Below, in pieces: positions 13,448 through 16,742 of a DNA stretch of 44,620 bases. The number at the start of each line of letters is the position of its first letter. Positions within the stretch are counted from its first letter, which is position 1. Source of the stretch: Chitinophagales bacterium (GTDB lineage: Bacteria > Bacteroidota > Bacteroidia > Chitinophagales > UBA2359); assembly GCA_020629005.1 (NCBI GenBank), contig JAHDEE010000011.1, positions 11,882-56,501 of the forward strand. The letters run 5' to 3'. Below the pieces are notes generated by a model. That model was not told the DNA's origin. It did no database searches and was given only the letters and a program-made list of their open reading frames with translations. The position numbers and the translations under genes are program-made.

Positions 13448-14161
13448 ATGCTTAAAAACCTTGACCTGTCGACGGTCGTTTGTCTGGACATTGAAACTGT
13501 TCCTGGCCATGCCTCATTTGCTGAGCTGGATGCTGTGATGCAGGAGAATTGGGCCAAGAAAGCGGAACGAATGAAAATTCCGGACAGCTCTGCCGACGAA
13601 CTCTATTTTGACAAAGCAGGCATCTTCGCTGAATACGGCAAGATCATTTGCATCACGGTTGGAATCTTTGCCAATAGCGGCACAAAAATTCGCCTCAAGT
13701 CCTTTGCCGGCGATGATGAAAAAGCACTTTTGCAAGATTTTTTCAGTACCATGAGCAAGGTGCTCAATAGCCCAACCTACAAGATTTGCGGTCACAATAT
13801 CAAAGAATTCGATATCCCCTGGATTTGCCGTCGTGCCGTAATCCATGGTTTGGAATTGCCCCGCTCCCTGGACGTCGGCGGTAAGAAACCTTGGGAAGTA
13901 CCCTACATGGACACGATGGAATTATGGAAATTTGGCGATCGCAAAAGCTTCGTCTCACTCAAACTGCTAACTCACCTACTCGGCATTCCTAGCCCCAAAG
14001 ACGACATCGATGGCAGCGAAGTGGCTGGTGTTTACTGGCTAGAAGAGGACCTTCCCCGCATTGTGCGTTACTGCGAAAAAGATGTTGCCGCAGTTTGCCA
14101 ATTGCTATTACGGCTACAAAACAAAGAGCTGCTCCCAGATGAACAAATAGTAATTGTTTAG
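13448..14161 (+). CDS. Predicted 3'-5' exonuclease, PolB-exonuclease-like (DnaQ fold)
   Basis: This 237-residue protein carries the DEDD exonuclease motifs: ExoI as CLDIETVPG with Asp14 and Glu16, ExoII as CGHNIKEFDIPW with Asp122, and ExoIII around RYCEKDVAAV with Asp212. The fold and order match the family described as related to the exonuclease domain of PolB, found widely in Bacteroidota. It probably trims DNA or RNA 3' ends. It has no polymerase domain. Its last sense codon reaches the boundary of the 600-bp repeat element: the TAG stop (14159-14161) is made from the element's own terminal TTAGGAGC. The native C-terminus may therefore have been altered by the insertion. Confidence 0.87.
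   Translation: MLKNLDLSTVVCLDIETVPGHASFAELDAVMQENWAKKAERMKIPDSSADELYFDKAGIFAEYGKIICITVGIFANSGTKIRLKSFAGDDEKALLQDFFSTMSKVLNSPTYKICGHNIKEFDIPWICRRAVIHGLELPRSLDVGGKKPWEVPYMDTMELWKFGDRKSFVSLKLLTHLLGIPSPKDDIDGSEVAGVYWLEEDLPRIVRYCEKDVAAVCQLLLRLQNKELLPDEQIVIV
14151..14157. repeat. Left copy of 7-bp target-site duplication
   Basis: TAATTGT directly abuts the outer end of the left inverted repeat at 14158 and recurs exactly at 14758-14764. It forms part of the last codons of the exonuclease gene. Confidence 0.7.
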
Positions 14162-14219
14162 GAGCGAAACAAATCCCAGCGCGGAAACGGCTTGCCCGTG
14201 CTCTGTTCCAATGCAACTA

Positions 14220-14300
14220 CCGTATGCCTGTTCCTGCTCTTGCCTGAGGGTCTCTCCTATCGTCGAGCCCCTCCGGCAAGGCAGTCACCACGGCATACGG
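14220..14300. repeat. Long imperfect hairpin inside left end of the element
   Basis: The outer arms CCGTATGCC (14220-14228) and GGCATACGG (14292-14300) are exact complements. CTGC (14234-14237) pairs with GCAG (14281-14284). An inner 16-bp stem (14239-14254 with 14265-14280) pairs at 14 positions around a 10-nt loop. The middle portion has mismatches. Such a stem could be a transposase-recognition structure or form in RNA read through from the exonuclease gene. Confidence 0.7.
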
Positions 14301-14359
14301 CAGCTGCATTTCCTCGTCGCCCGGGGCTATTTTGAACCTGATTTCGCACGAGGGTATAG

Positions 14360-14421
14360 TTTTGGGTTTTGGGTTTTGGGTTTTGGTTTTGGGTTTTGGG
14401 TTTTTGGTTTTGGGTTTTGGG
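14360..14421 (+). repeat. (TTTTGGG)n tract, nine units, potential G-quadruplex
   Basis: There are nine consecutive units, seven exactly TTTTGGG, with TTTTGG as unit four and TTTTTGG as unit seven. Seven GGG runs separated by T4 satisfy the usual G-quadruplex pattern on the plus strand. All three plus-strand frames are open simply because the unit has no stop. I treat the tract as non-coding, in the centre of the mobile element. Confidence 0.85.
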
Positions 14422-14604
14422 TTCCAACACACAAGTCCGAAGCCTGTACACATACTCCTCTCTCTTCCGTTTCTCGCCTCTCTACCGTCGATCGGTTCTT
14501 TAACCCAACTCGCTTCGACCAAGAAAATCTCTGATTCAGCAAAGGCCTTTATCACCACTCGCCACGAACGACATCTGCTGCAGAATAGCCCAGATAGAAA
14601 TGGA

Positions 14605-14704
14605 AATGGAGGCGCCGCTCAGCCGCTGAGTCGCTCCACAGCATTGGCTGCATTAGCAAGACAATGATGTGGATGCAGCGAAGCAGCTGAGCGGTGCCTC
14701 CATT
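14605..14704. repeat. Long imperfect hairpin inside right end of the element
   Basis: The arms 14605-14623 (AATGGAGGCGCCGCTCAGC) and 14686-14704 pair over 19 positions, 18 Watson-Crick plus one G-T. Weaker pairing continues inward (CCACA and CATTG blocks). It occupies the same relative place as the left hairpin but has a different sequence, so the element ends share structure more than stem sequence. Confidence 0.7.
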
Positions 14705-14757
14705 GGAATGGATAGCTGGGAGACCGGCAACGCGCTGGAATGACTTTTCGCTCCTAA

Positions 14758-14764
14758 TAATTGT
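14758..14764. repeat. Right copy of 7-bp target-site duplication
   Basis: TAATTGT directly follows the end of the right inverted repeat at 14757 and is identical to 14151-14157. Joining the flanks at one copy would restore an uninterrupted reading frame through the end of the exonuclease gene. Confidence 0.7.
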
Positions 14765-14852: not shown

Positions 14853-14879
14853 AGGGACAGAGATTCAATAACTGTCCCT
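14853..14879 (-). terminator. Short stem-loop overlapping aminotransferase stop
   Basis: AGGGACAG (14853-14860) and CTGTCCCT (14872-14879) pair exactly around an 11-nt loop, at the 3' end of the minus-strand glycan operon. No T-run follows on the minus strand, so termination activity is uncertain. The rest of 14765-14877 shows nothing else. Confidence 0.4.
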
Positions 14880-16020
14880 AAACCAACTCCCTGGCCGATT
14901 TCACCGACTCCCGCACCGCCTCAATCACATAATCGACTTCCTCATCCAGCAGTTGGGAATATAGTGGCAGCGTAATCGTGCTATCCCCGATTCGCTCCGT
15001 TACGGGCAATTGTCCCCTCCGGAATTGATATTTTTCCCTGTAGTAACGGTATAGGTGAGTCGCTCTGTAATTTACCGCTACACCTACATCTCGGGTCTGC
15101 AACTCATCCAATACTGTATCCCGAATTGCAGGATTAACCCAGATGGTAAAGATGTGTCTTGCATGCTTTGTTTCGGGAAGAGCAATTGGAAAGTCAACAC
15201 CCTGTGTTTGTGTAAATGCCTGCTCGTACCTGGCTGATATCTTTTGCTTTATGTCCAGATACTTAGCCAACCTATCCATCTGATTTACAAGTAAAGCTGC
15301 TTGAATATTACTCATATTAAACTTGTAACCAAGGAAATCCAATTCATAGTGCTGATACCGCTTGCCATGTCTTTGCGCAGCATGTTTGTTGACTCCCTGG
15401 ATACGTGCTTTTGAGAGCCATTCATACATCCGCTGCTGCTTGCAAATGATGGCCCCTCCTTCACCTGCGGTCATGTTTTTGGTAGCGTAAAAACTGAAAC
15501 AGGCTGCATCAGAAAACATACCAGGGCGATAGCCATCACGCTCACTTTCAATGGCATGACAGGCATCTTCAATAATGGCCAGACCATGCCGATCGGCTAT
15601 GCGTTTCAACTGCTTCATGTCGATCATTTGCCCATAGAGATGCACAGGGATGATGGCCTTGGTGTAAGGGGTGATAGCAGACTCAATCAAAGACAGATCG
15701 ATGTTGCCGGTTTCCGATTCAACATCAACATATACTGGCTTTGCACCTGTTCGTTCTATGGCATGACTGGTACCTAAAAAGCTCATTGCCGTGGTGATGA
15801 CTTCGTGTCCCTGACCAATATCAAAATATTTGAGGCAGAGAAACAGACTGTTGGTACAAGAATTAGTCCCAATGGCAAATGGACTTCCCATCAATTCCGC
15901 AAAGCGGCGCTCGAATTCTTCGACCACGCTTCCCGTAGTCAGAAACATGGAGTTCAACACTTCCATACAGGCAGCTTTGTCCACTTCGTTCAGGTTGTGT
16001 TTGTAGAAGGCTACTTTCAT
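14878..16020 (-). CDS. DegT/DnrJ/EryC1/StrS-type sugar aminotransferase
   Basis: From ATG 16020 (MKVAFYKHNL) the protein has 380 residues, normal for the family; the 20 codons upstream to 16080 are not convincing. It is a fold-type I PLP enzyme. IGTNSCTNSLFLCL (50-63) forms the phosphate-binding turn, IIEDACHAIE (149-158) holds the ring-binding Asp152, and FSFYATKNMTAGEGG (175-189) carries the Schiff-base Lys181. The family transaminates keto-sugar nucleotides to make amino sugars for O-antigens, glycans or antibiotics. It is the last gene of a minus-strand operon, 11 bp behind the WbqC-like gene. It probably makes an amino sugar, or a related amine, for a surface glycan; the exact sugar is not deducible. 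Confidence 0.9.
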   Translation of the reverse strand: MKVAFYKHNLNEVDKAACMEVLNSMFLTTGSVVEEFERRFAELMGSPFAIGTNSCTNSLFLCLKYFDIGQGHEVITTAMSFLGTSHAIERTGAKPVYVDVESETGNIDLSLIESAITPYTKAIIPVHLYGQMIDMKQLKRIADRHGLAIIEDACHAIESERDGYRPGMFSDAACFSFYATKNMTAGEGGAIICKQQRMYEWLSKARIQGVNKHAAQRHGKRYQHYELDFLGYKFNMSNIQAALLVNQMDRLAKYLDIKQKISARYEQAFTQTQGVDFPIALPETKHARHIFTIWVNPAIRDTVLDELQTRDVGVAVNYRATHLYRYYREKYQFRRGQLPVTERIGDSTITLPLYSQLLDEEVDYVIEAVRESVKSARELV

Positions 16021-16031
16021 TGCGAAAAGTT

Positions 16032-16742
16032 TTATGCTGAATGACCACTTCGTAGTATGGACAAAGACTCCGGACCACAATTAAACAAGAGATCAACAAT
16101 GCTAAGGTAAGGCATAAATGTCGCTCCCTGCTGCGGATATTGTGGATGCTGATATTGCTGAAAATGAAGCTTGATACCTTTTTCCTCGAAAGCCTTCGCG
16201 TTTATGTAATTGACAGCACTCGCACCCGTTAGATAATCAGTAGCTTCCAGGGATTGACAGATCTCTACAAGGCGCCCAGTAGCGTCAGTGGAGCGAACCT
16301 CTAAGTCAGAGCTACGCAGAATTTCGGTATTCTCAATTTTCAACATCTTTACAAACATGCTCACTTGATCCATGTCTAATTCACTGAGGAATCGGTAGGG
16401 CTTGTGAAACTGTTGCCAGATGGCCTCATAGAAATCGAAGAAGTAGGGACAATGATAATAGCTTTCGAGAATCAGTTCCTTATGCCTGCGTTGCCATGGC
16501 CGGTCGTAGGATATTTCTATGTCCTTGATCTTTGCATGGTACCTTCCTTTGCTCTTGACAGGGACTGATAAGAGGGTCTTTTCGCCGCCAATTCCTTTGA
16601 TGTAGTTGCGATTTCGCCAGTCTCGCCTGGTATACTGCACATCATCGAGAAACACAAAGGTGTCGGATCTCGAGAGTTGATCGAAATAGCCTAGCCAGGG
16701 AAGGTAGGAAGGTTGCAGTATGACGACGGTTTTCTGTAACAT
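16032..16742 (-). CDS. WbqC-like family protein
   Basis: This is a 236-residue protein with the WbqC signature at its start: VVILQPSYLPWLGYFDQL (5-22), then DTFVFLDDVQYTRRDWRNRN. Later LLSVPV and TDYLTGASAVNYI are also typical. WbqC-like proteins occur in O-antigen and polysaccharide loci and are suspected to act in modified-sugar synthesis, often beside DegT aminotransferases; the reaction is not settled. I start at ATG 16742, 20 bp after the glycosyltransferase stop; a TTG five codons upstream is possible. The pairing with the aminotransferase supports a joint role in one amino-sugar step. Confidence 0.88.
   Translation of the reverse strand: MLQKTVVILQPSYLPWLGYFDQLSRSDTFVFLDDVQYTRRDWRNRNYIKGIGGEKTLLSVPVKSKGRYHAKIKDIEISYDRPWQRRHKELILESYYHCPYFFDFYEAIWQQFHKPYRFLSELDMDQVSMFVKMLKIENTEILRSSDLEVRSTDATGRLVEICQSLEATDYLTGASAVNYINAKAFEEKGIKLHFQQYQHPQYPQQGATFMPYLSIVDLLFNCGPESLSILRSGHSA

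Follow-up and report, generated by a model that had tools for sequence, protein, structure and literature searches.

What is the gene-free stretch of approximately 600 bp that lies between two convergent genes at positions 14158-14757 of the window (the whole 44,620-nucleotide stretch of DNA that was analyzed)? The original prediction was a single miniature inverted-repeat transposable element (MITE), bounded by a 7-bp target duplication, mobilized in trans by a DDE transposase and not matched to a named family. We found that it does have a named family. The "600-bp element" is almost certainly two separate units of Flavo-1 (Rfam RF01705), one from each of two related subtypes, L and R, arranged head-outward in the intergenic gap, with an unrelated tract of 7-bp period between them (Table 1). 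The best explanation overall, which we consider likely, is that this is a pair of independently acquired Flavo-1 units belonging to a hyperexpanded, folded, REP-like variant of the family.

Table 1. Features of the locus, and Y1 transposase genes found elsewhere in the same genome (positions in the window unless a locus is named)
Feature	Position	Strand	Remarks
Predicted 3'-5' exonuclease gene (PF10108), upstream neighbor	13448..14161	+	TAG stop inside terminus of L unit
TAATTGT, left copy	14151-14157		Within last codons of exonuclease gene
Flavo-1-family unit, L subtype	14158..14363	-	Element positions 1-185 match dozens of solitary copies
Left "terminal inverted repeat", TTAGGAGCGAAA	14158-14169		Conserved 3' terminus of L unit, read on the other strand (terminal profile, 120 units)
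Core hairpin of L unit, 143 nt, starts TCAAAATAGCC	14193..14335	-	Covariance model R1, 153.8 bits
Tract of 7-bp period, GTTTTGG x 9.4	14359..14423		On 5' side of L unit; outside both units
Flavo-1-family unit, R subtype	14552..14757	+	3' end TTTCGCTCC-TAA at 14757
Core hairpin of R unit	14581..14720	+	RF01705 match 14583-14726
Right "terminal inverted repeat", TTTCGCTCCTAA	14746-14757		Conserved 3' terminus of R unit (terminal profile, 120 units)
TAATTGT, right copy	14758-14764
DegT/DnrJ/EryC1 aminotransferase gene (PF01041), downstream, convergent neighbor	14878..16080	-
Y1_Tnp gene, L051	339-884
Y1_Tnp gene, L052	1365-1913
Y1_Tnp gene, L053	1396-1941

The individual features on which the prediction was built are present in the DNA. 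The outer 12 bp are exact inverted repeats of each other, TAATTGT occurs exactly on both flanks, the TTTTGGG tract lies in the middle, and each end contains a hairpin of its own (14210-14310 and 14589-14720; z about -10 relative to shuffled sequence). Genome searches also bore out the proposal that the ends are REP-like, that is, a gene-free, dispersed repeat in very many copies. The similarity of the two ends over about 65 bp is real too, but it is the family resemblance of two related units.

The reading of these features as one element did not hold. We searched the genome to which the window belongs (G000; 6.89 Mb in 456 contigs) and found each end by itself dozens of times, mostly solitary and in two subtypes, but no second copy of the full 600 bp. 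The flanking repeat is compatible with chance. The left TAATTGT is contained in the end of the exonuclease gene (ATA GTA ATT GTT TAG), and there was no flank-to-flank direct repeat beyond chance, and so no signal of target duplication, over 120 units. Because the flanks of the family are AT-rich, random pairs of units share a 7-bp repeat at rates of 0.8% (same offset) and 3.4% (any offset). Our sample contained nine close pairs, and the unread remainder of the genome has more, so a single repeat of this type is unsurprising. Target duplication was absent at the other close pairs with flanks that were read, and the interiors of other close divergent pairs were unrelated, some of them containing ordinary genes. 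Neither the 1.5 Mb that we read nor searches of the remainder with end-based patterns and models revealed a full insertion sequence that had both ends in common with the pair, leaving mobilization by a DDE transposase unsupported. We also considered a composite transposon with cargo, but close pairs with longer interiors flank ordinary host genes and have no common content. An origin of pairs by duplication and inversion was rejected as well: similarity within close pairs did not exceed that between random units (0.54 vs 0.59).

A second species of the same genus (G001) lacks a unit at the orthologous site. The two genes that enclose the pair in the window are convergent neighbors there too (the exonuclease is 80% identical), but they enclose no unit. 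The intergenic gap itself cannot be aligned, and both insertion in G000 and loss in G001 fit. The gap in G001 (L134 1440-1505) contains a different repeat, AGTGCTRCGYAAAC to GTTTACGGAGCACT-like, and repeats of this type have about 35 matches in 1.5 Mb of G000.

Assignment to Flavo-1, a family already known (PMC2864571), is based on both sequence and structure. In a search of 701 bases the R unit matched RF01705 with 33.6 bits (E 2.9e-5). Its long stem probably explains why this falls short of the curated 42 bits. A sister copy (L027) scored 46.5 bits, above the gathering score of 42 bits. Rfam gave no match for the L subtype, whose kinship is based on its alignment with R units and on cross-hits between the L and R covariance models. 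Aligned copies from this genome form these two related subtypes, and the L and R units of the window are 54% identical overall. Canonical Flavo-1 copies found by pattern search in Flavobacterium, Chryseobacterium and relatives share the core and likewise end in AGCTCC-TAAA; in Flavobacterium the 3' ending is GATAGCGGG-aat-AGCTCC-TAAA. A consensus structure with compensatory changes (below) further indicates membership in the family. As a genome-wide probe, RF01705 was almost blind in this genus (6 weak matches), and for this reason we built our own covariance models from L and R units. Exact patterns of the core gave no match for the L subtype in a collection of genome contigs (own genome excluded) and none for the R subtype in a collection of viral contigs.

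When Flavo-1 was catalogued in 2010, it was listed as a probable RNA to which no function could be assigned; its Rfam type is sRNA. Our limited search of later literature found no added function for Flavo-1, nor any mention of a long variant with two subtypes, of these copy numbers or of the rule on direct neighbors described below. A lineage-specific, hyperexpanded variant of Flavo-1 is our best reading of the long two-subtype form.

The units are abundant in this genome. The L model matched at least 150 places and the R model 148. Local reading identified 149 units in 1.50 Mb, a sample partly chosen for unit content; a more even sample had 48 units in 574 kb, which extrapolates to about 570 per genome. 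The units are dispersed, mostly solitary and intergenic, with a density of approximately 1 per 10-12 kb. TTAGGAGCGAAA with at most one mismatch occurred 318 times in G000, compared to 48 times for the reversed control. Each unit consists of a long hairpin, in which internal loops are conserved, between two dissimilar ends. The 3' end is sharp, TTTCGCTCC followed by WAAWAAW with almost no G or C (terminal profile of 120 units), and the 5' end is weak and CGCG-like; the AT-rich motif is at one end only. In the window, the 3' end of the L unit (TTTCGCTCC-TAA) is at 14158 and its weak 5' end is near 14358-14363.

Other repeats occur close to the units. Tracts of 7-bp period, made of many different heptamers (TTTTGGG, CTCTTTA, ATCACAG, ATCCCAA, GTTTTTA), were found on the 5' side of Flavo-1 units, as at 14359-14423 of the window and in G000 contigs C151, C182, C57, C83 and C409. 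Such tracts were in 12/141 of the 5' flanks, 2/141 of the 3' flanks and 4/1500 random windows. Beside canonical Flavo-1 of Flavobacterium they were found in only 2/58 cases, which is unconvincing. Three intergenic repeats of G000, GCCCGGCGTGACGTCCCCGTCGCGCCGACAGCTTGG, GTAAAAACCCAATTGGGAGTCTTCAACGGTCGC and TTTTCGATGATTGGTGGAGCCAATAAATAGT (e.g., in the flanks of L031, L032 and L013), were within 400 bp of a Flavo-1 unit in 15/28, 9/12 and 4/4 cases, respectively. Draft contigs often end in or beside a unit (C170, C175, C182, C188, C193, C161), as though sequencing or assembly failed at the hairpins.

Related genomes contain units in variable numbers. There are more than 100 in G001, where the sequence after the 3' terminus is A-rich, and about 40 in a genome of another genus (G006); in most other relatives no units were detectable with the R1 model. 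Several units are at the same intergenic place in G000 and G001, and other sites are not shared. At candidate orthologous sites with poor flank alignments, the unit is on opposite strands in the two species (G000 C437:14980/G001 C414:18253; C23:12198/C127:10455; L012/C135:945).

We found that the fold of the units is conserved and that it is specific to one strand. The core hairpins of the L and R units have predicted folding energies of -81.4 kcal/mol (z -10.2 relative to shuffled sequence) and -77.4 kcal/mol (z -10.1), and both fold better on the AATAGCC-to-TTTCGCTCC strand than on the opposite strand. Model R1, applied to 102 units of G000, gave 4127 paired cells, of which 97.7% were standard pairs, and 36/41 pairs had changes on both sides. 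Compensated cells numbered 1240, compared to 324 in shuffles, and the covariation score was 0.80, compared to 0.19 in shuffles and at most 0.10 with the partner slid. The fold thus persists copy after copy while the sequence changes. It also persists at orthologous sites: in each of four orthologous pairs from G000 and G001, 7-9 base pairs were changed on both sides and kept, and these orthologs rank high, mostly not first, among all comparisons.

The kinds of mismatch tolerated identify the strand. A structure formed on both strands would give equal numbers of G-U and A-C combinations. Instead, G-U and U-G occurred 191 times and A-C and C-A twice in the 102 units of G000; the alignment was fitted to a model that leans toward pairing, a lean far too small to account for 191 to 2. 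The counts in G001 were 152 and 6. Folding is therefore a property of the Flavo-1 strand, whether in the form of RNA or of single-stranded DNA. Correction of cruciforms or quasi-palindromes as the source of the compensatory changes is contradicted by the excess of G-U and by the kept internal loops.

How might such units spread? Tentatively, we suggest a REP-like route, with retention of the units in folded form; it is the mechanism with most support, from the dispersal of the units, the empty site, the missing duplication, the AT-rich motif at a single end and the Y1 genes described below. In this scheme, each unit would be recognized as a folded single strand and inserted beside AT-rich sequence without duplication of the target. 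Units that came to lie close together in direct orientation would be lost, as the intervening stretch was excised or deleted, so that only inverted neighbors such as the L/R pair would remain. The spreading enzyme could be an IS200-like (Y1) transposase, although we regard this as a doubtful candidate lead. All three Y1_Tnp (IS200-like) genes of G000 (Table 1) are within 0.7 kb of a Flavo-1 unit. By a rough estimate about a fifth of genes adjoin a unit, so the chance of finding all three Y1 genes adjacent to one is roughly 1%. We found no Y1 transposase in G001 or G006 despite their many units, indicating that Y1 is not needed now or that the copy is missing or lost. A further point against is that target sites of IS200/IS605 elements lie on the 5' side, and the strand favored by G-U pairs is opposite to the strand that would carry the AT-rich motif 5'. 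The units found at the same place in both species fit retention better than active movement.

The main rival to the REP-like variant is a cis-acting RNA. The units could be functional structured RNAs or RNA elements, present in hundreds per genome with dispersal secondary, and could act in cis on read-through transcripts, e.g., where genes converge, by protecting the 3' ends of mRNAs or trimming them. This explanation accounts for retention and for the base-pairing data above: G-U is tolerated and at some positions preferred, A-C is excluded, and the fold is kept between orthologs. Placement of the units is also in its favor. Gaps between convergent genes are enriched for units (27/76 units vs 34/193 gaps, p 0.002), and the sharp end lies next to the 3' ends of genes (median distance 49 bp). 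The sRNA type given in Rfam is a further point for it. However, a cis-acting RNA does not explain indifference to the direction of genes. Units in tandem contexts had no preferred orientation relative to genes (16 vs 16), and we rejected the idea that genes set the orientation. A promoter for an sRNA of its own was likewise rejected, since the terminal profile of 120 units had no conserved upstream sequence. Some shared sites, moreover, may have the unit on opposite strands in the two species. The literature is equivocal on expression of Flavo-1 as RNA: in F. psychrophilum, Flavo-1 hits fell in sense and antisense alike and were often outside transcribed regions (PMC9723704). Overall, we consider a primary function as RNA possible but unlikely.

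The orientation of neighboring units bears on a possible DNA-level function. Successive units less than 5 kb apart in G000, counted without contigs that had been fetched for their pairs, were divergent in 18 cases, convergent in 8 and direct in none. The corresponding numbers in G001 were 6, 5 and 0, and the two species together stand at 37 to 0 against the same direction. Two other repeat families of G000 that have close neighbors did not follow this rule. Among 84 Flavo-1 hits on a complete chromosome of Flavobacterium, 39/83 neighbors shared direction, as expected by chance, indicating that the rule belongs to the present lineage. An alternation of orientation along the whole chromosome was rejected. 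In G000, units 5-20 kb apart were inverted in 45 cases and direct in 19, but the bias was reversed in G001 beyond 10 kb (2 vs 8), and we kept only the rule for distances below 5 kb. Two R-subtype units of G000 (C425:7278 and 13236) are approximately 6 kb apart in the same direction with equal model scores, and may stem from a recent local duplication.

The rule would be explained by loss of the DNA that separates direct copies, whether by a dedicated enzyme, ordinary recombination or slippage. It is improbable, in our estimation, that the genus-wide absence of direct neighbors below 5 kb and the selection on the fold together imply genome-wide excision machinery that recognizes structure. If they did, Flavo-1, a widespread orphan "RNA" family, would gain a function at the level of DNA.

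A more specific version, that the units are recombination sites used as folded single strands in the manner of attC, with direct neighbors excised and inverted ones staying, seems to us quite improbable. It fits the structure-first, sequence-poor conservation on one strand and the complete lack of close direct neighbors, which distinguishes the units from the two other repeat families. Ordinary selection against direct repeats would look identical, however, and the rule is absent in Flavobacterium. The core boxes of integron attC sites are GTTRRRY/RYYYAAC. We saw no GTT/AAC-type core boxes in the units, the conserved termini of which differ, and the units are dispersed and form no arrays. Finally, the perfect 12-bp ends, the exact 7-bp flanking repeat and the congener site without the element speak for a single MITE with DDE transposition, but this is very improbable, given the missing second copy, the two different and mostly solitary end subtypes, the other close pairs without duplication and with unrelated interiors, and the 0.8-3.4% rate at which a pair acquires such a repeat by chance.

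Whether Flavo-1 is an RNA, a mobile DNA or a recombination site becomes directly testable in this genus. Its genomes have hundreds of copies each, in two subtypes and with sharp ends; the folding strand is defined, shared and empty sites exist in two species, and close neighbors obey the orientation rule.

The units resemble several known systems to different degrees. They share with Flavo-1 (RF01705) the AATAGCC, GATAG and GGAAAT / GGATAGC.GG core, a hairpin on the same strand, a 3' end of GCTCC followed by AT-rich sequence, and many intergenic copies in Bacteroidota with no fixed orientation to genes. They differ in having a much longer stem (about 140 compared to 76 model positions), an additional tail of ~25 nt before GCTCC and two subtypes, with L going undetected by the Rfam model. 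They also reach ~570 copies in one genome and have no neighbor in direct orientation within 5 kb. MITEs are likewise gene-free, with inverted ends and a flanking repeat, the latter at one site here; unlike MITEs, the units have no family of full-length copies, no matched ends and no target duplication elsewhere. Like integron attC sites, they conserve structure on one strand while the sequence varies, but the conserved letters differ and the units are dispersed. REPs and BIMEs, with their RAYT transposases, resemble the units in number (hundreds), in lying outside genes, commonly between convergent ones, and in being foldable and gene-free. Close neighbors in BIMEs are in alternating orientation (PMC2817692), as they are here, and a Y1 transposase is found beside units in this genome, though none was found in G001 or G006. 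The units are dispersed extragenic palindromes in more than 100 copies, as REPs are. A REP is 20-40 bp long and carries a tag such as GTAG (PMC3733652). The present units do not have that length or a GTAG or CGTC tag, and their terminus reads GGAGCGAA from the other strand. Unlike REPs, they are ~200 bp long with internal loops, their mobility is shown only indirectly, and they are carried by a congener without Y1.
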